Assembly: GCA_001768195.1 (NCBI GenBank)
Contig: MENI01000005.1
Span: 1-64,000, forward strand
Source: Bacteroidetes bacterium GWA2_40_15
Lineage (GTDB): Bacteria > Bacteroidota > Bacteroidia > Bacteroidales > VadinHA17
Length of the DNA: 64,000 nt
Reading direction: 5' to 3'
Shown here: positions 47,639 through 61,135 of the stretch, piece by piece
Numbering within the stretch: position 1 is the first letter of the stretch
How the letters are laid out: each line of letters begins with the position of its first letter
Position numbers and translations under genes: made by a program
The notes under the pieces: generated by a model
The model's input: the letters and a program-made list of their open reading frames with translations, nothing else
What the model was told of the DNA's origin: nothing
Database searches by the model: none

Positions 47639-48573
47639 ATATTGTTTAAGAGTCTGATTTTCTGTATCAATTCCTTCGCTCCTTTATCAAGAAATTTTTT
47701 TGCAAGCACAAGAGCTGTTTTTTCGGCCGTTCTGATTTCTCCTTCCACAGATTCTCTAATCATTCCCGAACCGTCAGTATCAGAAACAACTCCGGATATT
47801 TTAAAATTCTTATCGTCTGATTCTGAAAAGCATCCAATCGGAACCTGACATCCTCCTTCAAGAGCGCTTAGAAAAACTCTTTCAGCCTTCACCGCAATTA
47901 AAGAGGGAATGTGATTAATTTCTAATACCATGGATTCTGTTTCATGATCATCATCCTTTATTTCTATGGCAATAGCTCCCTGACTGATAGCGGGAGTCAT
48001 GATAGAAGGATCAAGAATTTCAGAAATTTTATCCTGATATCCTAAACGCTGTAAACCTGCAGCAGCCATTATCATAGCAGTGCAATATCCTTCATCCATT
48101 TTCTGAAGACGTGTATCAACATTACCACGGATATCCACAACCCTTAACTTACTGTTAAAATGAAGAAGCTGAGCCTTACGTCGCAGACTTGAAGTTGCAA
48201 CAATATCATTCTCATCAAGCTCAGCTAGTTTTTTACCATTTATGCTTACCAGAGCATCGCGAACGTCACCACGCTTCAGTACTCCGGCAATTATTAATCC
48301 TTCAGGCAATTCAGTGGGCATATCTTTTAAGCTGTGAACAGCCATATCGGCTTCGTTCTGAAGAAGTGAATTTTCAAGTTCCCTGGTAAAAAGACCCTTA
48401 TCGCCTATTTTTGAGAGAGCAACATCCAGTATCTTATCTCCTCTGGTTTTAATGATCTGTATTTCGAAGACATTGCCCGGAAAGTGCTTTTCAAGTTGCT
48501 CTTTTACCAGATTTGCCTGGCAGAGAGCTAATTTGCTTCCACGAGTAGCAATTTTTACAGAGCAATTAGTCAT
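47635..48573 (-). CDS. hemC: Hydroxymethylbilane synthase (porphobilinogen deaminase)
   Basis: 312 residues. IATRGSKLALCQANLVK opens domain 1; HSLKDMPTELP contains catalytic Asp84; LEGGCQVPIG carries the dipyrromethane-binding cysteine. All three domains are present. It overlaps hemA by 8 bases. Contrast the HemC-like domain of the CobA fusion at 51896-53038, which has Asn at the position of Asp84 and no cofactor cysteine. Confidence 0.96.
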   Translation of the reverse strand: MTNCSVKIATRGSKLALCQANLVKEQLEKHFPGNVFEIQIIKTRGDKILDVALSKIGDKGLFTRELENSLLQNEADMAVHSLKDMPTELPEGLIIAGVLKRGDVRDALVSINGKKLAELDENDIVATSSLRRKAQLLHFNSKLRVVDIRGNVDTRLQKMDEGYCTAMIMAAAGLQRLGYQDKISEILDPSIMTPAISQGAIAIEIKDDDHETESMVLEINHIPSLIAVKAERVFLSALEGGCQVPIGCFSESDDKNFKISGVVSDTDGSGMIRESVEGEIRTAEKTALVLAKKFLDKGAKELIQKIRLLNNI

Positions 48574-49828
48574 TTACAATGGGTTCAAATAAATCATTTA
48601 TTACCTTAATGTATTCCGATTTTTTACCGTTTTTAGTAACCTCTTTAAGTTTTTTGATAAATATCCGGGCATACTTTTCTGAGATGTGCTCAGAGTATTG
48701 TTCAATCAATTCATGTTCCTTAATTTTCCTTATCTTAAGAAAATCCTCAAGTTCAGCTTGCTGGATATTTTTCATATTTTCTTTGATGGAAATAATTGTT
48801 GGTGTAAGGTTCTGAATATCCATCCATTCCATAAATTCATCCTTAACCTCAGAAATTATAGCTGTACTATGATCAATAGCAGATTTTCTTCTTTCAACAT
48901 TTTTGATAACTACAGCCTTCAAATCATCAACGCCATAATAATGTACATTTTCTATCTCATTTACACTTTTGGCAATATTTGATGGGACTGAAAGATCGAT
49001 ATAAGCCTGGGTTTTATATTCTCTTCTAATCATGGCCTTTTCAGCCATATCCCTGTTAATGAGATGATTCTTAGATGATGTGGCTGTAATTACAAGATCG
49101 CATTCAGGAATGTACGATTCGATTGCTGATAATTCTATCGCACTTCCCGTATATTTTTCAGCCAATTCTGCAGCCCTTGAGAATGTACGGTTCGCAATGA
49201 AAAGCGCAGGATGATTTTTTTTCATTAAACATTGCAGAATAAGATCTCCGGTTTGGCCTGCTCCAATTAACATAATCGTTCGATTCTGAAGATCGGGAAA
49301 TATCTCATTACAGAGTTCCACAGCAGCATAACTGACAGATGCTGCTCCCCTGTTAATATGTGTTTCTGTACGTATCCTCTTGCCTGCTTCAATAGCTTTT
49401 ATAAATAATCTTGAAATAATACAATCTGTTAATTTATTGTTCTGTGCATAACGAAAAGCTTCTTTTACCTGGCCGAGAATCTGTTCTTCACCCAATACCA
49501 TAGATTCGAGCCCCGATGTAACTTTAAAAAGCTGTTCAACAGCCATCCCCATTGTGCAGAAATAAAATTCGCGAAGATTATAGTTGATGATTTTTTTGAA
49601 TTTCATTAACTCATCTGTTATAAGACGATAAACTTCACTCTCCTTATCCATCCGGGTATTAAAATAAATTTCAGTACGGTTGCATGTCGATAAAATGACT
49701 ATGCCTTCGAGCTGAAGTATAAATTTGATATGATCTGCAAAAATTATTTTTTCGCGCTCATCAAACGCGTATAACTCCCTTACACTCACCGGAGCAGATT
49801 TATGACTAATTCCCAGAATAGCTATCAT
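48566..49828 (-). CDS. hemA: Glutamyl-tRNA reductase
   Basis: 420 residues. LSTCNRTEIYF has the catalytic cysteine; GLESMVLGEEQILGQVKEA is the diagnostic central motif; MLIGAGQTGDLILQCL binds NADPH; the C-terminal helical dimerisation domain is present. It makes glutamate-1-semialdehyde from Glu-tRNA. First hem gene; a 95-base gap separates it from the sensor kinase, so it may have its own promoter, though none is clear. Confidence 0.95.
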   Translation of the reverse strand: MIAILGISHKSAPVSVRELYAFDEREKIIFADHIKFILQLEGIVILSTCNRTEIYFNTRMDKESEVYRLITDELMKFKKIINYNLREFYFCTMGMAVEQLFKVTSGLESMVLGEEQILGQVKEAFRYAQNNKLTDCIISRLFIKAIEAGKRIRTETHINRGAASVSYAAVELCNEIFPDLQNRTIMLIGAGQTGDLILQCLMKKNHPALFIANRTFSRAAELAEKYTGSAIELSAIESYIPECDLVITATSSKNHLINRDMAEKAMIRREYKTQAYIDLSVPSNIAKSVNEIENVHYYGVDDLKAVVIKNVERRKSAIDHSTAIISEVKDEFMEWMDIQNLTPTIISIKENMKNIQQAELEDFLKIRKIKEHELIEQYSEHISEKYARIFIKKLKEVTKNGKKSEYIKVINDLFEPIVND

Positions 49829-51895: not shown

Positions 51896-53038
51896 CTATT
51901 TTATTATAGAATGATTTACCATTACGGTATTACCGGCAATTACGAGTAAAGGGCTTTGAAATATATTTGTTCCTTTCAGGATTTCATATAACCTTCCGGT
52001 AATTATTCGTTGTCCGGGTAATGAAATGTTTTCAATAAGGGCAATGGGTATATTCGTTGGTCTTCCTGCTGCGATCAGTTTATTCAGAATGATGTGTAAA
52101 GTCGATGCCGGCATATAAAATACGATAGTATCTGTATCGGGGATGTGTATACTGCTTTCAGGATGCCCGGTGCAAAAGGACACTGATGAAGAGATACCTC
52201 GTTGGGTAAGAGGAATGCCGGCAATGGCAGCAGCTGCCAAAGCGGAAGTGATGCCGGGAATGATCTCCACATCGATCAGTCGTTGTTTCAGATAACAGAA
52301 CTCCTCACCGCCACGGCCAAAGATCATGGGGTCGCCGCCTTTGATCCGCACTACCTTTTTACCGCTGATAGCCGCTCTGTATAACAGTTCATTGATCTCA
52401 TCCTGTTCTTTCATGTGCAGATCTTTTCGTTTACCTGCTTTGATCTTTTTACCTTTAAAGTTTTCGAGGTAGGTATCATCCAACAAACTGTCATAAAAAA
52501 TAATATCTGCCTGTTGTAATGCCTTCTGTGCTTTTATTGTGAGTAATTCCGGGTCACCCGGCCCAAAGCCGGCAATATAAACTTTCCCGTATTTTTTTCG
52601 GCAATCAATAGGGGAAAAGAGATTTTTAAGAAATAAATTTTCTTTTTTAGCAATTACAACCAGTTGTTCTTGTAAGGATTTAGTTTTAACCTGTGATGCC
52701 GGTTCATTAAGTTTTCTATTGTTATTGCTGATCATGCAGTCGGTCTTATCAGACGAATCAGTTAAAGCAATGACATCAAGACCTGCCGGTAAAGGATACG
52801 GCAGATTTTTGGCTGAATGAATGGCTATGTCTCCTTCGTCTGATAGGATCGCTTCATCAAGTTTGCGGGTAAAAAAATCTGTTGGTGTATTGGCATACAA
52901 AGATATCTCTTTGTGTTTATCGACATGACTTTGAATTTTTAATATCTCGTATGTAACATTTGGAAGAAGCATCATTAATTCCTCAACCTGTTTGATTACA
53001 AGGCTACCCGAACGAGTTACTATTTTAAGTCTGTTCAT
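51896..53038 (-). CDS. cobA: HemC domain 1-like / uroporphyrinogen-III C-methyltransferase fusion
   Basis: 380 residues from the ATG at 53038, which overlaps the previous gene by 14 bases. Residues 3-105 resemble domain 1 of porphobilinogen deaminase (IVTRSGSLVIKQVEEL, DFFTRKLDEAIL, IAIHSAKNLPYPLP). The catalytic Asp of HSxKD is Asn78 and domains 2-3 with the cofactor Cys are missing, so it cannot be a deaminase. Residues 150-380 are a complete SUMT: IAGFGPGDPELLTIKA, VVRIKGGDPMIFGRGGEE, PGITSALAAAA and GHPES. SUMT makes precorrin-2 from uroporphyrinogen III for siroheme. The N-terminal domain may bind tetrapyrrole or stabilise a complex; that is inference. Confidence 0.88.
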   Translation of the reverse strand: MNRLKIVTRSGSLVIKQVEELMMLLPNVTYEILKIQSHVDKHKEISLYANTPTDFFTRKLDEAILSDEGDIAIHSAKNLPYPLPAGLDVIALTDSSDKTDCMISNNNRKLNEPASQVKTKSLQEQLVVIAKKENLFLKNLFSPIDCRKKYGKVYIAGFGPGDPELLTIKAQKALQQADIIFYDSLLDDTYLENFKGKKIKAGKRKDLHMKEQDEINELLYRAAISGKKVVRIKGGDPMIFGRGGEEFCYLKQRLIDVEIIPGITSALAAAAIAGIPLTQRGISSSVSFCTGHPESSIHIPDTDTIVFYMPASTLHIILNKLIAAGRPTNIPIALIENISLPGQRIITGRLYEILKGTNIFQSPLLVIAGNTVMVNHSIIK

Positions 53039-53510
53039 GTTCAGTTTTTTCAGATGTATCATTCGCAATCAAACGTTTTATTTTATTTCTCCATTCGATG
53101 GCTTTTTTAACATTTATGCCGTTTGAACTCACGGCAATTGTCAGGTAATCTTTTTTAAAGACAGCAGGAGTAATGAAATCACATAACCCCGGATCATCCA
53201 CCACGTTTACTAATATCCCTAATTTAACAGCGTCTGATTTTATTTGTGCGTTCACTGTCCTGTTGCTAGTGCAGGCATATACAATCGAATAATGATGCAA
53301 ATCATAAAAATGATATTCTTTGGTTATCTGCTTAAAACCGGTTTGTCGGATATCTTCACATATTTCTATCGCCAAAATGGTTATTTTATCAGTAAACATT
53401 GAAAGGGCCGACAGTTTCCGTGCTGCAATCCTGCCACCACCTATGATCAAAATATGTTTGTTTGAGATATCTAACCAAACAGGTAAATAAATATTCTGTT
53501 TAGATTTCAT
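53025..53510 (-). CDS. Precorrin-2 dehydrogenase / sirohydrochlorin ferrochelatase-like (Met8/CysG-N)
   Basis: 161 residues. LPVWLDISNKHILIIGGGRIAARK is the NAD-binding opening of the CysG N-terminal/Met8 family; YACTSNRTVNAQI, VNVVDDPGLCDFITPA and LTIAVSSNG are the conserved substrate-site segments. It converts precorrin-2 to sirohydrochlorin and perhaps inserts iron. With the overlapping CobA fusion it forms the siroheme branch that supplies the sulfite/nitrite reductase encoded 20 bases upstream. Confidence 0.92.
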   Translation of the reverse strand: MKSKQNIYLPVWLDISNKHILIIGGGRIAARKLSALSMFTDKITILAIEICEDIRQTGFKQITKEYHFYDLHHYSIVYACTSNRTVNAQIKSDAVKLGILVNVVDDPGLCDFITPAVFKKDYLTIAVSSNGINVKKAIEWRNKIKRLIANDTSEKTEHEQT

Positions 53511-53530
53511 ATTCTTTGGTACATATCGGG

Positions 53531-55855
53531 TTAGTTTTTTTGTATCAAAACCGACCAGTAGTTATCTATCCTGTCCTGTTTTATAATGTTGTGTCCTTCA
53601 CTTTTAACTGAACCCGGTACATTCTCTATGGGTTCACCATCATCAAGCAGTATTTCTAACAGATCGCCTGATTTCAAGGCTGAAAGTTCTATTTTTGTTT
53701 TAACAAAATTCAGCGGACATTTTATTCCTCTAAAATCCTTGATTTTAACAACTTCTGCCTTTTTATCAACTGTAACGGGTTTTGCTGCTTCTGTTTTGAA
53801 ATGGAGTGAATCGTCCATGTTCTCGTATAATTCGATTACCGCATCTGATAATAAATAAATATTGTCCTTGTCAGGAATTAAATTATCGTTAGGATTTTGT
53901 TTAGTTTTTTTGACCAGGTATTTATATTCCTGATTGATCAAACCTTCATCAATGAAATTATTTATAAAAGCATCAAATAATTCCTGATCATTCTTAGGTT
54001 CAATGCCTTTTGTAATGAGCAGCATGCGTGATGATGAGTATATTATAGCATACAGATATTCATTAATCGCGGCTCTGTCTGATGTCTGCAAAATCTTTTC
54101 TTTGTTATTTATGATCGAATTCATGTCCAGGTCGATCAGGTCGAAAAGACCTGCGGAACATTCACCTAATCCACGTCCCACCAATGAGAAAATGTTCTCG
54201 CTGCCCCAATCGAAATAATAATTTTTATCTTCTTCGAAATCGGGGATATTATTGAATTTGCTGCATAAATCAGTTATGTTTTTCTTGCCTTCCGATGCGA
54301 TATATGATGAGAAGTTTTTATAATTGATTTTTTTACTTAGATATTTCTCCAGGAGTTTAACAGTAAACTCAGGCAGATCACGAGCACTGATTTTGCCAAC
54401 TTGCTCAGCAAGTTTTGCGTTATATTCAGATTGAACGGCCCCTGCAACAATCTCATATGCCGGGTACATACGATCATTACGACCAACTATGCCATAAAAA
54501 CCAAGATCAGCAGAAGCCTGCTGTCCGCATGAATTAGGGCACCCGGAAATATTAATCTTTATATCTCCCAGTTCGTCCAGGGCCAGCTTGCTTTTGGCAA
54601 GTTCTTTTCTTAGTCCGTTTAAAGCCCCCCTTGATAGACATATACCCAGACGGCAGGTATCAGCTCCTGTGCAGGATGCCATTGTATTTAAGAGTAAAGG
54701 CTCCCCTGTATTTATACCTGTTTTTAACAGAAAATTGTAAATATTACCCAGATATTGTTCAGGGATATTACGCAAATGGATATTCTGACGCATTGAGAAT
54801 CTGATTACGTCATTGCCAAATTGCCTGAGATATTCACCTAAACTATGCGCAATATCAGCCGGAACATTTCCAAAAATAAAAGGCACGATGATGCTGTAAA
54901 ACCCGTCCTGCTTTTGGGTTTTTACATATCGTTTTCTCCACAGGTCAAACTCGGAACCGATGACATCCTGGGGTTTCAGATCAGGTAAATTTGTTGTGCT
55001 TTTAATATCGGGAATGATGATCTGGTTGTTTCCGGCATTTTTGAGTTCATTATAAATTTGTTGATATAAATTAAATACATTTCCTTTCCCGAGTTTATAG
55101 AACACGTAACGTAGGCGGGCTTTATGTTTGTTTTTTCGGTTACCATAACGTGAGAATAACTTTTTTGCAGCATCGGCCACAAGACCAATCTCACCCGACG
55201 GAATAAATTCGAACAACACCGGGCTTACCATGGGTTTAAGGCCAAGCGAACCACCAATGAATACCTTGAATCCTTTTACGCCGTCCTTTTCTTTAGCAAT
55301 GAATCCCAAATCGTTGAAAGTTGAATATGCCGTATCTTCTTCTGTATTTGAAAAGGCAATCTTGAATTTTCGCGGGAGGGTCCAGGAATCGGCCTCGGCA
55401 ATCAACTTATTAGTTAAAGCAACCGTATAAGGAAAAACATCAAATGTTTCATTCGGGTCAATACCCGAATCAACAGATGCCATTATATTTCTCACGGTAT
55501 TACCACCGCCGCCCCTGGATGCCAGACCGATCTGATACAGGTCTTTCAGGATATTGACCGTCCTCTGTAATGTAATATTCTGAATCTGAATTTCCTGCCT
55601 TGTTGTAATATGCAACAATTCAGAGCCATACTTTTTAGCAATAGAAGCCACCTGTTCCAGTTGAGAAGGACTTATATAACCACCGGCGCAGCGAACACGA
55701 ACCATGAATGTGCCGTCTTTGCGTTGTTCGTATATCCCCATTGGCACGCGTGTTGCCTTAAATTTGGCCGGCTCAATTTTCTTATCCAGGAAATCGGAAA
55801 TAAGAGCTTCGTAATTTTCAATCTCTTCTGTCAGGTTATCTGGTAATGAATACAT
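53531..55855 (-). CDS. Siroheme sulfite/nitrite reductase with C-terminal TusA domain
   Basis: 774 residues. About 1-510 is a siroheme/4Fe-4S reductase of the NirA/CysI type: RVRCAGGYISP, TTRQEIQIQNI, GGGGNTVRNI, and cluster cysteines 395, 401, 439 and 443 in ASCTGADTCRLG and SGCPNSCG. About 560-685 is a helical HEPN-like insert. Residues 704-772 are a TusA/SirA domain with Cys713 in GIKCPLNFVKTK. Sulfite reduction would make sulfide on the same chain as a persulfide-carrying TusA domain. It leads toward siroheme genes below and TusA, JAMM, DsrE and ThiF genes above. Substrate (sulfite rather than nitrite) is inferred from this setting. Confidence 0.9.
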   Translation of the reverse strand: MYSLPDNLTEEIENYEALISDFLDKKIEPAKFKATRVPMGIYEQRKDGTFMVRVRCAGGYISPSQLEQVASIAKKYGSELLHITTRQEIQIQNITLQRTVNILKDLYQIGLASRGGGGNTVRNIMASVDSGIDPNETFDVFPYTVALTNKLIAEADSWTLPRKFKIAFSNTEEDTAYSTFNDLGFIAKEKDGVKGFKVFIGGSLGLKPMVSPVLFEFIPSGEIGLVADAAKKLFSRYGNRKNKHKARLRYVFYKLGKGNVFNLYQQIYNELKNAGNNQIIIPDIKSTTNLPDLKPQDVIGSEFDLWRKRYVKTQKQDGFYSIIVPFIFGNVPADIAHSLGEYLRQFGNDVIRFSMRQNIHLRNIPEQYLGNIYNFLLKTGINTGEPLLLNTMASCTGADTCRLGICLSRGALNGLRKELAKSKLALDELGDIKINISGCPNSCGQQASADLGFYGIVGRNDRMYPAYEIVAGAVQSEYNAKLAEQVGKISARDLPEFTVKLLEKYLSKKINYKNFSSYIASEGKKNITDLCSKFNNIPDFEEDKNYYFDWGSENIFSLVGRGLGECSAGLFDLIDLDMNSIINNKEKILQTSDRAAINEYLYAIIYSSSRMLLITKGIEPKNDQELFDAFINNFIDEGLINQEYKYLVKKTKQNPNDNLIPDKDNIYLLSDAVIELYENMDDSLHFKTEAAKPVTVDKKAEVVKIKDFRGIKCPLNFVKTKIELSALKSGDLLEILLDDGEPIENVPGSVKSEGHNIIKQDRIDNYWSVLIQKN

Positions 55856-55867
55856 AATCAGGCATAT

Positions 55868-56266
55868 TTAATTTATTATTTGTATGGTTTCTTCTTCTAC
55901 TTTTGATTTTTGAATATTATATGCTTTAATATGTGGAGTTTTATCAGCTAATGATATTATGAAATACAATATATCCGGATCATAAGCCATCCGGATATCT
56001 TCTTCCGACGGGCGTGCCGGGGATTTGGGATGACTGTGATAATTGGCCATGATACCTATTCCTGCTTCCCTGACCTTTCTCACAACTGTGAATTGCTCCT
56101 CAGGATCAAATGAAAAGTGTTCTTCGCTATTATCCACGTTTCTTATTTCATAACTTTGAGTTATCGTATCGCTATTGCCGGCTAAGTAGCCGCATGCTTC
56201 AATGGGGTAAACTTTTTGCGCATGCAAAATAATTTGATCTACTATTTTTTGCCTGATTTTTATCAT
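55868..56266 (-). CDS. JAMM/MPN metalloprotease (HcyD/Mec+-like)
   Basis: 132 residues, a complete JAMM domain: Glu23 (PIEACGYL), then zinc ligands His77 and His79 in YHSHPKSPARPSEED with Asp90. Bacterial relatives Mec+ and HcyD release amino acids from, or trim the tail of, ThiS-like sulfur carriers. It overlaps the TusA gene by 4 bases and lies in the same cluster as a ThiS-like protein ending GGGEK, its likely substrate. Confidence 0.9.
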   Translation of the reverse strand: MIKIRQKIVDQIILHAQKVYPIEACGYLAGNSDTITQSYEIRNVDNSEEHFSFDPEEQFTVVRKVREAGIGIMANYHSHPKSPARPSEEDIRMAYDPDILYFIISLADKTPHIKAYNIQKSKVEEETIQIIN

Positions 56267-56487
56267 TTCTTAATGCGTATTTTATAAATATTATCATGCA
56301 AATTTTCAATACCTAAAATCTCAAAACCTTGTTCGGTAGAGCTCTTGGGGATGTTTTCCAAAGGTTCGCCTTCTGTCACCAACACTTCAAGTATATCATC
56401 CTTCGCGATCTTTGCCAGTTGTATTTTGGTTTTTACAAAGGTCATCGGGCAATGTTCCTTAGTTATATCTAAATTGAATGTTGCCAT
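56263..56487 (-). CDS. TusA/SirA-family sulfur-transfer protein
   Basis: 74 residues: ITKEHCPMTFVKTKIQLAKI with the persulfide-carrying Cys13, then LEVLVTEGEPLENIP. Closely related to the TusA domain at the end of the reductase 53531-55855 (CPLNFVKTKIELSAL, GEPIENVP), indicating a local duplication. Likely relays sulfane sulfur between the DsrE-like protein and downstream acceptors. Confidence 0.9.
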   Translation of the reverse strand: MATFNLDITKEHCPMTFVKTKIQLAKIAKDDILEVLVTEGEPLENIPKSSTEQGFEILGIENLHDNIYKIRIKK

Positions 56488-56498
56488 ATTTAAAATTA

Positions 56499-56981
56499 TT
56501 AAATGAATATTCTGTCCCCGCCTTGTGAAATCTCCATGAATTTAGCCACTCCCAGAACTTCTTTATTTACCTCGGGAATAAAATCATTGATAGTAAGACC
56601 CAGGATTTGCATTGACATTTCGCAGGTGTAAAGTTTAACCCCAACTGCAATAGATGCATCAATCAGTTCTTTTAAAGATGCTACATTCCTTTTTCTCATC
56701 ATATAGTTCATCAATTTCGGACTGATATTGCAGAAATTCAACCTGCTGAGCGGAACATTATCAATACCACCCATCAGAAATCCGAAGAAGCGCGCAAGAA
56801 ATCCTTTACCCGTGAATACCCTTCCTTTTTTCTTTTTAATGGCATTTAAGCCCCAAAATGTAAAGAAGATATTTACTTCGTAATTGACAGCAGCCGAGCC
56901 ACTTGCAAGCGTAAACGCTGCAACCAGTTTATCGAAATCGCCACTAAAGCAGATAATTGATAGTTTTTTCCTGGGTTCCAT
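56499..56981 (-). CDS. DsrE/DsrF-like (DrsE2-type) sulfur-relay protein
   Basis: 160 residues: KLSIICFSGDFDKLVAAFTLASG, FFTFWGLNAIKK, KLMNYMMRKRNVAS and KLYTCEMSMQILGL. This is the larger DsrE/F-like group found beside TusA and rhodaneses; the cysteine in YTCEMSM is the probable sulfur carrier. It is 11 bases from tusA, so co-expressed and likely a TusA partner. Confidence 0.85.
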   Translation of the reverse strand: MEPRKKLSIICFSGDFDKLVAAFTLASGSAAVNYEVNIFFTFWGLNAIKKKKGRVFTGKGFLARFFGFLMGGIDNVPLSRLNFCNISPKLMNYMMRKRNVASLKELIDASIAVGVKLYTCEMSMQILGLTINDFIPEVNKEVLGVAKFMEISQGGDRIFI

Positions 56982-57022
56982 GATTTTTTATGATTTTTAG
57001 ATTATGCAATTTTTTAATTTTG

Positions 57023-57820
57023 TTACAGGTCGCATACCGGCATTTCTTCCAGTTTCAATTCGGTGATCGTGGGGTTTATACCGCACACCGGGCAATTTTC
57101 ATTACGGTTGAAATGGACTGAACGGAAACTCATGGACAATGCATTAAATATTAAAAACCGGTTTGTGAGCAGTTCACCAATACCTGTTAAATATTTCAAT
57201 GCTTCGGTAGCCTGTATGGTACCCAATATTCCGGCGACTGATCCTAATACCCCTGCTTGCGAACAGCTTGGAACCAGTCCTTTAGGGGGCGGACTATTAA
57301 AAACGCAACGATAACATGTATTCCCGGGGGTATAGGTCATCGTTTGACCATCGAATTTTATAATGCCTCCATGTGAAAAGGACTTACCTGATAAAACGCA
57401 TGCATCATTTATCAGGAATTTAGTTGGAAAATTGTCTGTACCATCCAGGATAAAATCGTATTCCGAAAAGATATCGTTGATATTATCGGTTGTAAGAAGC
57501 TCGTGGTAAGTCTTAACTTTAACATCCGGATTGATTTTTTCAATTTTTTCTTTGGCAGAAATAACTTTTGGCCGGTTGATGTCGGGCGTTGTATGAATAA
57601 TCTGACGCTGAAGGTTAGTAATGTCAACCACATCATTATCGATTATGCCTATAGTACCTACACCGGCAGCTGCCAGATATAAAGCTGCAGGTGATCCAAG
57701 TCCTCCTGCCCCTACAACAAGTACTTTCCCTTCAAGCAGCTTTATTTGCCCTTCAACACCTACATCTTTTAAAATGATATGACGGCTGTACCTTTCAATT
57801 TGGATATCTGTAAAATTCAT
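57023..57820 (-). CDS. ThiF/MoeB-like E1 adenylyltransferase (HcyF-like)
   Basis: 265 residues. VLVVGAGGLGSPAALYLAAAG (nucleotide loop), DNDVVDITNLQRQ, DGTDNFPTK, active-site Cys186 (VPSCSQAG) and both structural zinc pairs: Cys169/Cys172 and Cys243/Cys246. It would adenylate the C-terminal glycine of the ThiS-like protein at 59146-59358 so that sulfur can be transferred. It lacks a rhodanese domain, so sulfur would come from TusA/DsrE or directly from sulfide. Confidence 0.92.
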   Translation of the reverse strand: MNFTDIQIERYSRHIILKDVGVEGQIKLLEGKVLVVGAGGLGSPAALYLAAAGVGTIGIIDNDVVDITNLQRQIIHTTPDINRPKVISAKEKIEKINPDVKVKTYHELLTTDNINDIFSEYDFILDGTDNFPTKFLINDACVLSGKSFSHGGIIKFDGQTMTYTPGNTCYRCVFNSPPPKGLVPSCSQAGVLGSVAGILGTIQATEALKYLTGIGELLTNRFLIFNALSMSFRSVHFNRNENCPVCGINPTITELKLEEMPVCDL

Positions 57821-57846
57821 CGCTGTTTTTGATTGATTCTAATTTC

Positions 57847-59091
57847 CTACTTAATGTTTTTTGCCAATGATTTTAACGATTGTGAAATATCTTCGATCAG
57901 ATCTTCCGGTTCTTCAATACCAACAGCCATCCGTATCATCGTATCGCTTACACCAAGCTCTTGCCGGATTTCTGGCGTGTATTCGCAGTAGATGGTTGAC
58001 GCGGGATGAATAGCCAGTGTTTTATTGTCATTCAGGTTTGTAGCTCTTCGTATGATTTTAAGATTGTTTAAAAATTCAAAACAGTGTTCTTTTTTTACCA
58101 GATCGAAAGTTAGCAATGCGCCGTGGAGTTTACCAAACTGTTTCTTACTTATTTGATGAAACTCAGAAGTAGCCAATCCCGGGTAATTAACACTGGTGAT
58201 CAGCTTTTGTTTTTCGAGCCATTCAGCTAATACCTGTGTATTATGGCACGACTTATTTATTCTTAAATGAAACGTTTCCAGTCCCAATGTTTGCAAATAG
58301 GCATTATGTGCCGATAAGCAAGCGCCTATGTTTCTGAATACTTCTTTCCTCAGCTTGGCAATGAAGGTGAATTTGCCAAACTTCTTAGCATCAGGTGAAA
58401 ACTTCGGAATACTGTTCCAATCAAATGTACCATGATCAATAATAATTCCACCCATCGAGGTAGCTCCACCTGAGATGTATTTTGTTGAAGAAATAACCTC
58501 AATATCGATACCTGTTTCTTTGGCATTGAAAAAGCATAGCGGAGTAATGGTTGAATCAGCGATCAAAACCAGATGGTGATTCTTTCCTATTGTCGCGATT
58601 TTTTTTATGTCGGTTACTTCAAGCTGAGGATTGGTGATGGTTTCAAGAAAAATACCACGGGTATTTGCATCGGTCAGTTTTTCTATACACTCCGGCCGGG
58701 TCAAATCAGCGTATTTAAATGATACACCAAAGGGTTTTAGGGTGTGTTCGAAAAATGAATAGGTGTTTCCGAATAAATTTTTTGATGTAATAAAATTATC
58801 ACCTGCTTGTGCAATACAAAAAAATACATTGGAAATGGCTGCCATACCTGATGATAAAGCAATAACACCCGACGAATCGGTCAGATTTTTAATTACGTTT
58901 TCAAAATGCTCTACGGTCGGATTAGACAAACGGGCATAAACATGTAATGGTTTAGTGCCCCTGAATGCGTCTTCAAGTGCCTCTGCATTTTTTGTTTCAA
59001 ATGCAACATTATCGTAGACAGGCATACGTAAAGCGCCATGTGTATCCTGTTTACTGAAAGGTGTGTGTATGGCTTTTGTGGCAAATTTCAT
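57847..59091 (-). CDS. PLP-dependent O-acetylhomoserine sulfhydrylase-like enzyme
   Basis: 414 residues of the Cys/Met-metabolism PLP family. AIHTPFSKQDTHGALRMPVYDNVAF (start, quoted in part), SSGMAAISNVFF, LFGNTYSFF and the PLP lysine Lys204 in ISSTKYISGG. MetY members join O-acetylhomoserine with sulfide, or with a carrier thiocarboxylate as in Wolinella. It sits between the E1 and the carrier gene, which favours the latter. It could also act as a cystathionine-gamma-synthase or lyase; sequence alone does not decide. Confidence 0.85.
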   Translation of the reverse strand: MKFATKAIHTPFSKQDTHGALRMPVYDNVAFETKNAEALEDAFRGTKPLHVYARLSNPTVEHFENVIKNLTDSSGVIALSSGMAAISNVFFCIAQAGDNFITSKNLFGNTYSFFEHTLKPFGVSFKYADLTRPECIEKLTDANTRGIFLETITNPQLEVTDIKKIATIGKNHHLVLIADSTITPLCFFNAKETGIDIEVISSTKYISGGATSMGGIIIDHGTFDWNSIPKFSPDAKKFGKFTFIAKLRKEVFRNIGACLSAHNAYLQTLGLETFHLRINKSCHNTQVLAEWLEKQKLITSVNYPGLATSEFHQISKKQFGKLHGALLTFDLVKKEHCFEFLNNLKIIRRATNLNDNKTLAIHPASTIYCEYTPEIRQELGVSDTMIRMAVGIEEPEDLIEDISQSLKSLAKNIK

Positions 59092-59145
59092 TTTTATTGT
59101 TATATATTTAAAACTTAGTACAGGATAATTCTTAATTCCGGATCT

Positions 59146-59358
59146 TTATTTTTCTCCGCCTCCCATAAAATATAGAAAATCTAATTCGTCATTTTCTTTC
59201 AATGAAATTTTATCAAAAATTTTTTTATCAATGAAATTTCCGTTTAATTGAACCGAAACCATTTCTATTGACTCAACTTTATTCAATTTTAGTAAATCCG
59301 AGATGGAAACTGCATTTTTTTGAATTGATTGGTCTTTACCATTTACCTTTATTTTCAT
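59146..59358 (-). CDS. ThiS/HcyS-like ubiquitin-fold sulfur carrier with GGGEK tail
   Basis: 70 residues with a beta-grasp layout: MKIKVNGKD, SISDLLKLNKV, SVQLNGNFI, LKENDELDFLYFMGGGEK. ThiS and MoaD end in Gly-Gly; here Gly67-Gly68 are followed by Glu69-Lys70. The extra residues must be removed before E1 activation, which the cluster's JAMM protease could do, as HcyD does for HcyS. The absence of thiG, thiH or thiC nearby argues against a thiamine role. It is 20 bases after cysteine synthase. Confidence 0.88.
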   Translation of the reverse strand: MKIKVNGKDQSIQKNAVSISDLLKLNKVESIEMVSVQLNGNFIDKKIFDKISLKENDELDFLYFMGGGEK

Positions 59359-59378
59359 TATGATATGATTTTAACTGT

Positions 59379-60368
59379 TTAATTTATGTGTTGTCCATGT
59401 TTTTCTGAAAAGACTGATAAAGAGTTTTCTATCATATCGGGGTTATAAAGTGGTGTTGATAAATACCGTTCACCCGAGTCAGGTAAAATGACAACGATTT
59501 TTTTACCTTTGTTTTCAGGACGTTTAGCCACTTGCAAGGCAGCATAAACAGCGGCACCCGATGATATTCCTGCCAGCAGACCCTCGGTACGCGCTAACAG
59601 ACGACTAATCCGAAAAGCATCTTCATTTTCTACCTTTATTATTTCATCAATAACCGATTTGTTCAAAACATCAGGCACAAAGCCTGCACCAATACCCTGG
59701 ATTTTATGAGGGCCAGGGTTACCCCCTGACAATACAGGGGAGTCAGCAGGTTCAATACCTATAATTTTGATTTGAGGTCTGCGCTTTTTAAGGATCTCTC
59801 CAACACCTGTGATTGTTCCACCGGTGCCAATGCCGGCAATAAAAATATCAACATTACCTTTTGTGTCTCTCCAAATTTCTTCAGCTGTAGTTCTCTTGTG
59901 TATTTCAGGATTAGCAGGATTTTTAAATTGCTGCGGCATGAATGAATGAGCTATGTTTTCTGTAAGTTCTGCCGCCTTATTTAATGCGCCGGTCATTCCC
60001 TTTTCCCCCGGAGTCAAAACAATCTCAGCGCCTAATGCTTTTAATAAATTTCTTCTTTCAACACTCATTGTTTCGGGCATCGTCAGAATTAGTTTGTATC
60101 CTTTAGCAGCTGCGATAAATGCAAGAGCTATCCCTGTGTTGCCGCTTGTGGGCTCTATGATAATTGTATCTTTGTTTATCAGCCCTTTTTCTTCGGCATC
60201 TTTAATCATTGAATAGCCGATTCTGTCTTTAACACTGCTGCCTGGATTGAAAAATTCAAGCTTGGCTATTATGGTTGCCAGAGTATTATTTACCTGATTA
60301 AAATTTGATAACTCCAGTAAAGGCGTATTGCCTATAAGTTCTGTTAAATTTTTTGCAACTTTTGCCAT
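59379..60368 (-). CDS. cysK: Cysteine synthase (O-acetylserine sulfhydrylase)
   Basis: 329 residues. PLP lysine Lys47 in [29 protein letters not shown] substrate loop; [10 protein letters not shown] phosphate loop. Closest in wording to CysK, but the CysM group that accepts a carrier thiocarboxylate is similar, and the ThiS-like gene follows directly. First gene of the sulfur cluster, preceded by a promoter and two palindromes. Full length. Confidence 0.93.
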
Positions 60369-60475: not shown

Positions 60476-61135
60476 TCAGATATAATATTCGGTAGTGTCA
60501 ACGATGCCTGTTTTAACGGCATACATGATAAGCTCGGAGGTGTTGTTAATGCCAAGCTTTTTGAAAATGTTCTTTCGATGTGTATTGACAGTATGAACAC
60601 TTAAAAAATCTTTAGCTGCTATTTTTTTTGTTGAAAGACCTTGCGCTATGAGACGGATGATCTCAAATTCTTTTTTAGTTAAATGGATATTAGTACTCTT
60701 ATTCTTACTAATAGTGAGGTTCTCTTTCAGCAAAGCTTCAACCACTTCCTTACATAAAAAATTTTCATTCTTTTCGAGAGATGTAAGCGCATTTAGCAGC
60801 TCATCTTTAGTGCAGTACTTTAATAAAATATGGGTAATTCCGAATTCTAATATTTTAATTATATTTTCATTAACAGAATCTCCGGTCAGAACGAGGATGC
60901 TGGAAGAAGGGAATATCCCGGTTAGTTTTGCTAAATAAGATATTAAAAAATCATTCAACCGGTATGGATCAATAATCAAAATAGAAGGAGTATTATTTTC
61001 CAAAAAATCAAATAACTCATTATTAGATTCAATTGAGCCAATAATATCGTAATTACCGGTATTTTTCAAAACCGTTGTAATTCCTTCCCGGGTAAGTACC
61101 TGTGAGTCGGCTATAAGTATTTTAGTTAATCCCAT
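60476..61135 (-). CDS. NarL/LuxR-type response regulator
   Basis: 219 residues. Receiver domain with one N-terminal acidic residue (Asp10, ADSQVLTREG), phosphoacceptor-position Asp56 (LIIDPYRL), LTGDS and LLKYC. C-terminal LuxR helix-turn-helix (LTKKEFEIIRLIAQGLSTKK, then SVHTVNTHRKNIFKKL). Only one of the usual two acidic-pocket residues is present, so phosphorylation may be weak or absent. No sensor kinase is adjacent. It lies directly before the cysK promoter and may regulate the sulfur cluster; inference only. Confidence 0.87.
   Translation of the reverse strand: MGLTKILIADSQVLTREGITTVLKNTGNYDIIGSIESNNELFDFLENNTPSILIIDPYRLNDFLISYLAKLTGIFPSSSILVLTGDSVNENIIKILEFGITHILLKYCTKDELLNALTSLEKNENFLCKEVVEALLKENLTISKNKSTNIHLTKKEFEIIRLIAQGLSTKKIAAKDFLSVHTVNTHRKNIFKKLGINNTSELIMYAVKTGIVDTTEYYI

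Follow-up and report, generated by a model that had tools for sequence, protein, structure and literature searches.

A sulfite reduction operon of Bacteroidota that may pass sulfur through a TusA/DsrE relay to a thiocarboxylate carrier with two acceptor enzymes

The first 64,000 nucleotides of contig MENI01000005.1 from Bacteroidetes bacterium GWA2_40_15 (hereafter the window) contain a run of ten packed minus-strand genes (51896-60368, according to open reading frame calls, Pfam and NCBIfam). On balance, we favor the interpretation that this run is an operon for HcyS-type sulfur assimilation, in which sulfur would travel as a protein thiocarboxylate, and that it includes a persulfide relay of its own and two enzymes as acceptors. 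In the order of transcription, the genes are:

59379-60368, minus strand: cysK, O-acetylserine sulfhydrylase, 329 amino acids (TIGR01139, 474 bits, cut-off 351)
59146-59358, minus strand: ThiS-like sulfur carrier proprotein with the end FMGGG-EK (PF02597, TIGR01683)
57847-59091, minus strand: MetY-like pyridoxal phosphate (PLP) enzyme, proposed homocysteine synthase of the Wolinella thiocarboxylate class (PF01053, match to 3ri6)
57023-57820, minus strand: ThiF/MoeB-type E1, HcyF-like carrier adenylyltransferase (PF00899)
56499-56981, minus strand: DsrE2-like sulfur relay protein (PF13686)
56263-56487, minus strand: free TusA of a DsrE-linked lineage (PF01206)
55868-56266, minus strand: HcyD/Mec+-like JAMM metalloprotease (PF14464)
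53531-55855, minus strand: siroheme sulfite reductase (residues 8-528), HEPN-like domain (569-681) and TusA (700-774), 774 amino acids
53025-53510, minus strand: precorrin-2 dehydrogenase/ferrochelatase of the Met8/CysG-N type, siroheme synthesis (PF13241; TIGR01470 over its cut-off)
51896-53068, minus strand: partial HemC (PF01379, 1-148 of 207) fused to SUMT, uroporphyrinogen-III C-methyltransferase, siroheme synthesis (PF00590; TIGR01469 over its cut-off)

A preliminary description of the window had named these same functions, and Pfam and NCBIfam agree with it throughout. It had also counted ten genes, which is correct, but the range that it gave (53025..60368) covers only nine of them whole, since the SUMT gene extends to 51896. 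The intergenic gaps do not exceed 54 nucleotides and two gene pairs overlap, which is compatible with a single transcript; the run as a whole fits one. A chance grouping can be excluded because the identical order was found again in other genomes, through the comparison of gene order that the preliminary description had proposed.

A scan of named genomes provided 110 relatives of the reductase, 80 of which were retained (loci, genomes and contigs are designated L, G and C). They come mainly from Bacteroidota (Parabacteroides, Prevotella, Tannerella, and metagenome-assembled genomes (MAGs) from termite guts and sediments), some of the MAGs being labelled Chlorobiota; the others belong to Omnitrophota and, with one each, to a Calditrichota, a deltaproteobacterial, a Desulfobacterales, a Spirochaetia and an Anaerolineae MAG. 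The order CysK-ThiS-MetY-E1-DsrE-TusA-JAMM-reductase is repeated in L045, L048 and L052. L046, L047 and L069 keep it without CysK in the chain, and the Omnitrophota, Calditrichota and deltaproteobacterial MAG keep it without DsrE/TusA. Two more distant genomes of the same phylum, G228 and G114, have a ThiS-MetY-E1-DsrE-TusA-JAMM cluster, with CysK in front in G228, and before this cluster a reductase of about 720-750 amino acids that has a TusA of its own, encoded as a distinct gene after it. Of 395 genomes sampled from the window's phylum, 64 gave a reductase match (E <= 1e-40) and, among the matches listed, all but those of the host and G228 end before reductase residue 700. E1s more than 65% identical to that of the window, in frames of 269-279 amino acids, occur in three of these 395 genomes including the host; the remaining 47 E1 matches, at 50-57% identity, belong to longer frames. 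The reductase part has no match in 24 congeners. Genome-wide searches for ThiS, CysK and MetY covered 50 of the 80 loci and the host genome.

The carrier (best PDB match 2k5p/3cwi) ends in FMGGGEK, that is, two residues beyond its glycines. Its relatives were selected by the FMGGG motif and not by their tail. Two duplicates (L207 and L218, of L060 and L085), and carriers below 40% identity or without FMGGG, among them the second L094 carrier (38% identity, bare GGG end), were dropped. Among the 53 carriers thus counted, 51 have a tail of one to seven residues, one (L109) is fused to MetY and one (L052) stops at GGG. The other ThiS-like proteins from the same genome set (39 of 91 ThiS sites were read) have a bare GG end in 20 of 21 cases. 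The extra residues of these 51 carriers fit a JAMM protease that has to trim the carrier, as is reportedly the case for HcyS in Wolinella, and the window carrier itself fits a proprotein with a removable tail. The JAMM protein (best PDB match 2kks) conserves E23, H77, H79, S87 and D90 in 52/52 rows, so the E, HxH, S and D of what we take to be its active site are intact; its proposed role is the processing of the carrier and the release of the product. The E1 matches PF00899 alone (best PDB match ThiF, 1zfn), with no rhodanese match in the Pfam scan, and is found in the chain of 52 of the 53 carriers. Its cysteines C186 and C263 are kept in 58/58 and 57/57 aligned rows (here and for JAMM, DsrE and TusA, rows under set identity limits were left out), and C263 possibly substitutes for the absent rhodanese.

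Some carriers and E1s deserve mention in their own right. In an Omnitrophota contig (L109:7356-9000), the carrier is in frame with MetY (FMGGG-NGLRF...), a fusion that would require cleavage past the glycines. The single exception among the 21 non-cluster ThiS-like proteins, from Parabacteroides sp. Marseille-P3160 (L204:5001-5216), ends in CGGSGKSVRL. In L087:2876-6256, the gene after the tailed carrier resembles glyceraldehyde-3-phosphate dehydrogenase by eye. In 54 of 57 rows, the E1 cysteine C263 is among the final 12 residues, and a non-cluster E1 (L223) has a similar end.

The MetY-like protein scores 421 bits against 3ri6, which we take to be the Wolinella enzyme, versus 276 for the next PDB entry, and the MetY phylogeny groups it with 3ri6 (100/99, on long branches) apart from the canonical MetY of the host. 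Its 354.6 bits on TIGR01326 (cut-off 495.1) fall short of the curated limit for the canonical sulfide-dependent class, whereas the MetY of host contig C17 reaches 693. The Wolinella O-acetylhomoserine sulfhydrylase draws its sulfur from a protein thiocarboxylate (PMC6271081). MetY proteins of this type are present in 15 of the 53 carrier chains. The Wolinella precedent invoked in the preliminary description is therefore borne out by the MetY class, the E1, the JAMM protease and the tailed carrier.

The siroheme reductase, the HEPN-like domain and TusA are joined in one polypeptide. In an alignment of the window protein with 63 of 75 full-length reductases (selected for extending beyond residue 740), C395, C401, C439 and C443, which presumably bind the siroheme/4Fe-4S cofactor, and K163 and K165, presumably of the anion site, are invariant in 64/64 rows. 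The TusA tail and its cysteine are present in 78 of the 80 related reductases, a count based on the 80 and not on the 75 because the latter were picked for reaching past residue 740. One of the two relatives without a visible tail (L122) is cut at a contig end; the other is L112 (L112:1317-3413), of 698 residues. A Glu-Cys pair at reductase residues 565-569 (Cys566, HEPN-like domain) is likewise invariant in 64/64 rows, and also in 29/29 reductases without TusA fusion. As to the siroheme genes, the HS-K-D motif of the partial HemC fused to SUMT reads HSAKN in the window and HSAKD in 27 of 34 aligned rows (the window and one duplicate locus being counted); a second HemC-like match, with HSLKD, lies at about 48109-48597 on the minus strand.

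The free TusA has the fold and the conserved cysteine (C13, 21/21 rows) of its family, and the DsrE-like protein (PDB matches 2qs7 and 3pnx) keeps C120 in 17/17 rows. In the phylogeny of 100 TusA rows, in which deep forks are weak (69 columns), the free TusAs linked to DsrE form a group of their own (19 rows, 100/98) away from the reductase tails, whereas the two separate reductase-side TusAs of G228 and G114 group with the tails. This split and the separate reductase-side genes point to two distinct TusAs, of which one goes with the reductase and the other with DsrE and E1.

The window CysK exceeds the cut-off of TIGR01139 and stays under that of the CysM model TIGR01138 (298 vs 394); it is thus not of the O-phosphoserine type, and its best PDB entry is 2q3b, cysteine synthase A. 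Directly upstream of 14 of the 53 carriers (the window and 13 more) there is a CysK, and eight of these 14 chains contain no Wolinella-type MetY, although the chains of L196 and L214 end early. One of these eight, in Parabacteroides sp. Marseille-P3160 (L205), is the cluster CysK-ThiS-E1-DsrE-TusA-JAMM. Among 76 CysK copies (matches of at least 50% identity, with DsrE positions from three loci only), 17 have a carrier or DsrE as neighbor, 16 have a canonical MetY and none has both, where 3.6 would be expected (naive P 0.01); the CysK of host contig C17 was scored as having neither neighbor because a CysE-like gene separates it from MetY. In the CysK phylogeny, links to a carrier or DsrE were seen for 10 of the 14 rows of one Bacteroidales clade (93/95) and links to MetY for none, and the adjoining clade (100/99) has 0/12 linked to a carrier and 5/12 linked to a canonical MetY. 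CysK is thus probably a second user of the carrier sulfur, as the preliminary description had supposed; the idea gains from comparison between genomes only, and the protein itself has the sequence of an ordinary CysK.

The rest of the host genome could supply the substrates. The genome search found no PF01077 protein besides the operon reductase. Contig C17 encodes CysH, CysD, CysN (named from EF-Tu-type GTPase domains), LarE, cystathionine gamma-synthase, a response regulator, the canonical MetY, a second CysK and, scoring under the curated cut-off, a CysE-like protein; a MetA homologue is on contig C91. This second set of CysK, CysE-like protein and canonical MetY lay beyond what the preliminary description could take in. 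With the sole PF01077 reductase in the operon and CysD, CysN and CysH on C17, sulfite should be made by the C17 genes and reduced by the window operon.

The pathway that we propose would run as follows. Met8 and SUMT would make siroheme for the reductase, which would reduce sulfite coming from the CysD/CysN/CysH cluster and load the sulfur onto its own TusA tail as a Cys713 persulfide. From there, the linkage between genes suggests that zero-valent sulfur, taken from the siroheme by Cys713, would move onward via DsrE Cys120 and Cys13 of the free TusA. JAMM would trim the carrier back to its glycines, and E1 would adenylate the trimmed end, which the sulfur delivered by the relay would convert into a thiocarboxylate. 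MetY would join this thiocarboxylate to O-acyl-homoserine (the acyl-homoserine coming from the MetA homologue) and JAMM would free homocysteine, as in Wolinella, a step suggested here by the class of the enzyme. CysK would probably do likewise with O-acetylserine, provided by the CysE-like protein, yielding cysteine. E1 adenylation, thiocarboxylate transfer and JAMM release are all steps reportedly established by the Wolinella work. The same three steps are described in Mycobacterium (PMC3227635).

Several scenarios compete with this one. In the closest, which we consider unlikely although it deserves serious attention, the HcyS pathway would be for methionine only: the carrier would serve MetY alone and CysK would be a co-controlled sulfur gene using free sulfide. 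The ordinary sequence of the window CysK speaks for it, as do the absence of CysK from 9 of the 15 chains with a Wolinella-type MetY and the fact that the acceptor known in Wolinella is an O-acetylhomoserine sulfhydrylase (PMC6271081). Other observations also weigh against the role that we attribute to CysK: the carrier-linked CysKs do not form one clade across phyla, some of them falling outside the Bacteroidales clade, 43 of the 76 copies have neither type of neighbor, operon membership can reflect shared regulation only, and free sulfide could suffice for the second CysK/MetY set of the host to make both amino acids. Nevertheless, the methionine-only scenario is difficult to reconcile with the eight carrier chains that have CysK directly upstream and no Wolinella-type MetY, or with the contrast between the Bacteroidales CysK clade and its carrier-free neighbor. 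In addition, 9 of 51 genomes (G440, G445, G450, G452, G458, G462, G463, G474 and G482) have a tailed carrier but gave no Wolinella-type MetY at >=42% identity and E <= 1e-30, a soft absence as these are mostly MAGs. A different possibility, which seems to us rather doubtful, concerns the relay: sulfide from the reductase would attack the carrier acyl-adenylate directly, and TusA and DsrE would have other jobs, for example in persulfide or thiosulfate storage or detoxification. This would agree with the Wolinella scheme, in which bisulfide from the reductase is said to attack the acyl-adenylate so that a persulfide relay is unneeded. The relay suggested in the preliminary description is backed by linkage, with two TusA lineages of which one is tied to the reductase, but DsrE is found in only 12 of the 53 carrier chains, leaving 41 without it. 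In L187, L191, L193 and L194 DsrE is near the carrier chain but outside it. None of the Omnitrophota, Calditrichota, deltaproteobacterial and Spirochaetia loci has it, which implies that the relay is dispensable for the pathway. The tailless L112 reductase points in the same direction, and the carrier of L087 is a difficulty for our scheme as a whole, as no E1 was matched in the 3.2 kb of contig beyond it. Against direct use of sulfide stand the near-universal tail of the related reductases, the adjoining TusA of the reductase-tail lineage in two relatives, and an E1 that lacks rhodanese yet retains C186 and C263. For four assimilatory sulfite reductases, furthermore, the direct product has been described as zero-valent sulfur (PMC13188885).

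Two further explanations appear highly improbable. The carrier, E1 and JAMM could form a ubiquitin-like tagging system, conjugating the carrier to proteins and removing it, with the sulfur genes as bystanders. The JAMM protein does resemble the haloarchaeal desampylase model, under its cut-off, and E1-JAB systems in general were proposed by Iyer et al. 2006 to act in conjugation; yet they place the subtype with sulfur genes in sulfur assimilation (PMC1779556), no E2-like family is found among the ten genes, and the linkage to sulfur enzymes and siroheme genes is repeated. It is just as hard to credit that the reductase is an assimilatory nitrite reductase with an accidental link to sulfur. Plant nitrite reductases are its nearest solved folds, but its anion site reads RKFK and not their RKWN, with lysines invariant in the 64 rows, it is fused to TusA, and no other PF01077 protein was found in the genome, which encodes CysD, CysN and CysH.

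The thiocarboxylate operon with a relay and two acceptors, which we favor for the window, may be part of a wider picture that we advance tentatively. Anaerobes of the Bacteroidota, gut Parabacteroides and Prevotella relatives among them, would assimilate sulfite without releasing sulfide. The siroheme reductase would load zero-valent sulfur onto its TusA domain, DsrE and a second TusA would hand it to the rhodanese-less E1, and one carrier thiocarboxylate would serve both MetY and an ordinary CysK, for homocysteine and cysteine; their CysK paralogues would be split into carrier-served and sulfide-served copies.

The nearest known system is reportedly the homocysteine pathway of Wolinella (Krishnamoorthy and Begley 2011), said to consist of HcyS, HcyD, HcyF and MetY, with a rhodanese-less E1, a JAMM protease, a carrier whose tail is Ala and a clustered sulfite reductase. 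The window shares the MetY class, the E1 without rhodanese, the JAMM protease, the tailed carrier and the reductase in the cluster; what sets it apart from Wolinella is the reductase-TusA fusion, the additional free TusA accompanied by DsrE, a cysK gene immediately before that of the carrier, and the tail EK. Nearly the entire core gene set is also found in row 4e of Iyer et al. 2006, which combines ThiS/MoaD, JAB, a rhodanese-less E1, SirA, sulfite reductase and O-acetylhomoserine sulfhydrylase, and in which the SirA/TusA protein was predicted to stand in for rhodanese (PMC1779556). Unlike the window, that row lists no cysteine synthase, DsrE is not named anywhere in the paper, the subtype with cysteine synthase has an E1 with rhodanese, and the reductase fusion described, in two actinobacteria, is to ThiS and not to TusA (PMC1779556). 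The same source reports a Ub-like::ThiF protein with O-acetylhomoserine sulfhydrylase and cysteine synthase in Pelobacter propionicus, and ThiS with cysteine synthase in Pelodictyon/Chlorobium (PMC1779556). These arrangements resemble the window in that a Ub-like carrier has cysteine synthase, or PLP enzymes of both kinds, as its neighbors. In Pelobacter, unlike the window, carrier and ThiF are fused and cysteine was read as the sulfur donor, and the passage concerned mentions no reductase, TusA, DsrE or JAMM. The CysO/CysM/Mec+/MoeZ system of Mycobacterium tuberculosis, and rows 4c/4d with it, likewise combine a carrier thiocarboxylate, a PLP cysteine synthase and a JAMM protease, but the mycobacterial system relies on CysM, which takes O-phosphoserine, and on a rhodanese-bearing E1 (PMC3227635), whereas the window has an ordinary CysK, no rhodanese and a reductase in the operon. 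As in CysO systems, the cysteine synthase of the window is genetically tied to the carrier, the E1 and the JAMM protease.

The DsrAB-DsrC and DsrE/TusA relays of sulfate reducers and sulfur oxidisers are dissimilatory, DsrC is not a TusA, and their end product is not known to be a thiocarboxylate. What the window would share with them is sulfur borne by protein thiols beside a siroheme reductase and the partnership of DsrE and TusA (PMC13188885, PMC4175335). The former paper, from 2026, reports zero-valent sulfur from four assimilatory sulfite reductases and the use of glutathione persulfide by six cysteine synthases, and sees no evidence that DsrC takes part in assimilation (PMC13188885). The TusA tail could be the carrier that takes the place of DsrC in assimilation. 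The TusA-less siroheme reductases of the window's phylum also have a middle domain with a GEC motif, and a SUMT and/or Met8 match alongside (29 pieces read), but, unlike the window, no carrier, E1 or JAMM match was found in the pieces of about 5 kb around them. A literature search with most subscription papers outside its scope found no report of a reductase-HEPN-TusA fusion, of a two-TusA/DsrE relay in a thiocarboxylate operon, or of CysK recurring as a partner of the carrier in Bacteroidota. The core is known already; what seems new is that a sulfur relay is integrated into it and that a branch leads to a second amino acid.

If this interpretation is true, the path from sulfite reduction to cysteine would not have to go through free sulfide in these anaerobes, and CysK, a family thought to be generic, would have members fed by a protein thiocarboxylate. 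It would also provide a testable set of partners for what assimilatory sulfite reductases hand over and correct the automatic naming of the carrier as ThiS (TIGR01683 over its cut-off), and it may bear on the sulfide output of gut Bacteroidales.

Directly upstream of the operon lies a further gene, a possible regulator:

60476-61135, minus strand: LuxR-type response regulator (PF00072 and PF00196)

Homologues of this protein (E <= 1e-15) are found in 14 of the 119 other fetched loci and in the C17 cluster of the host. The window protein (60476-61135) and L200:11205-11873 are related LuxR-type regulators, 39% identical, one for each sulfur cluster of the host. At the place of the window regulator, directly before CysK, an Rrf2-type regulator is found in L245:8100-8633 (by Pfam) and in L048:5613-6047 (by eye, as the CysH, CysN and Rrf2 genes of the surveyed loci were named), and the protein cluster of the latter spans 11 loci.

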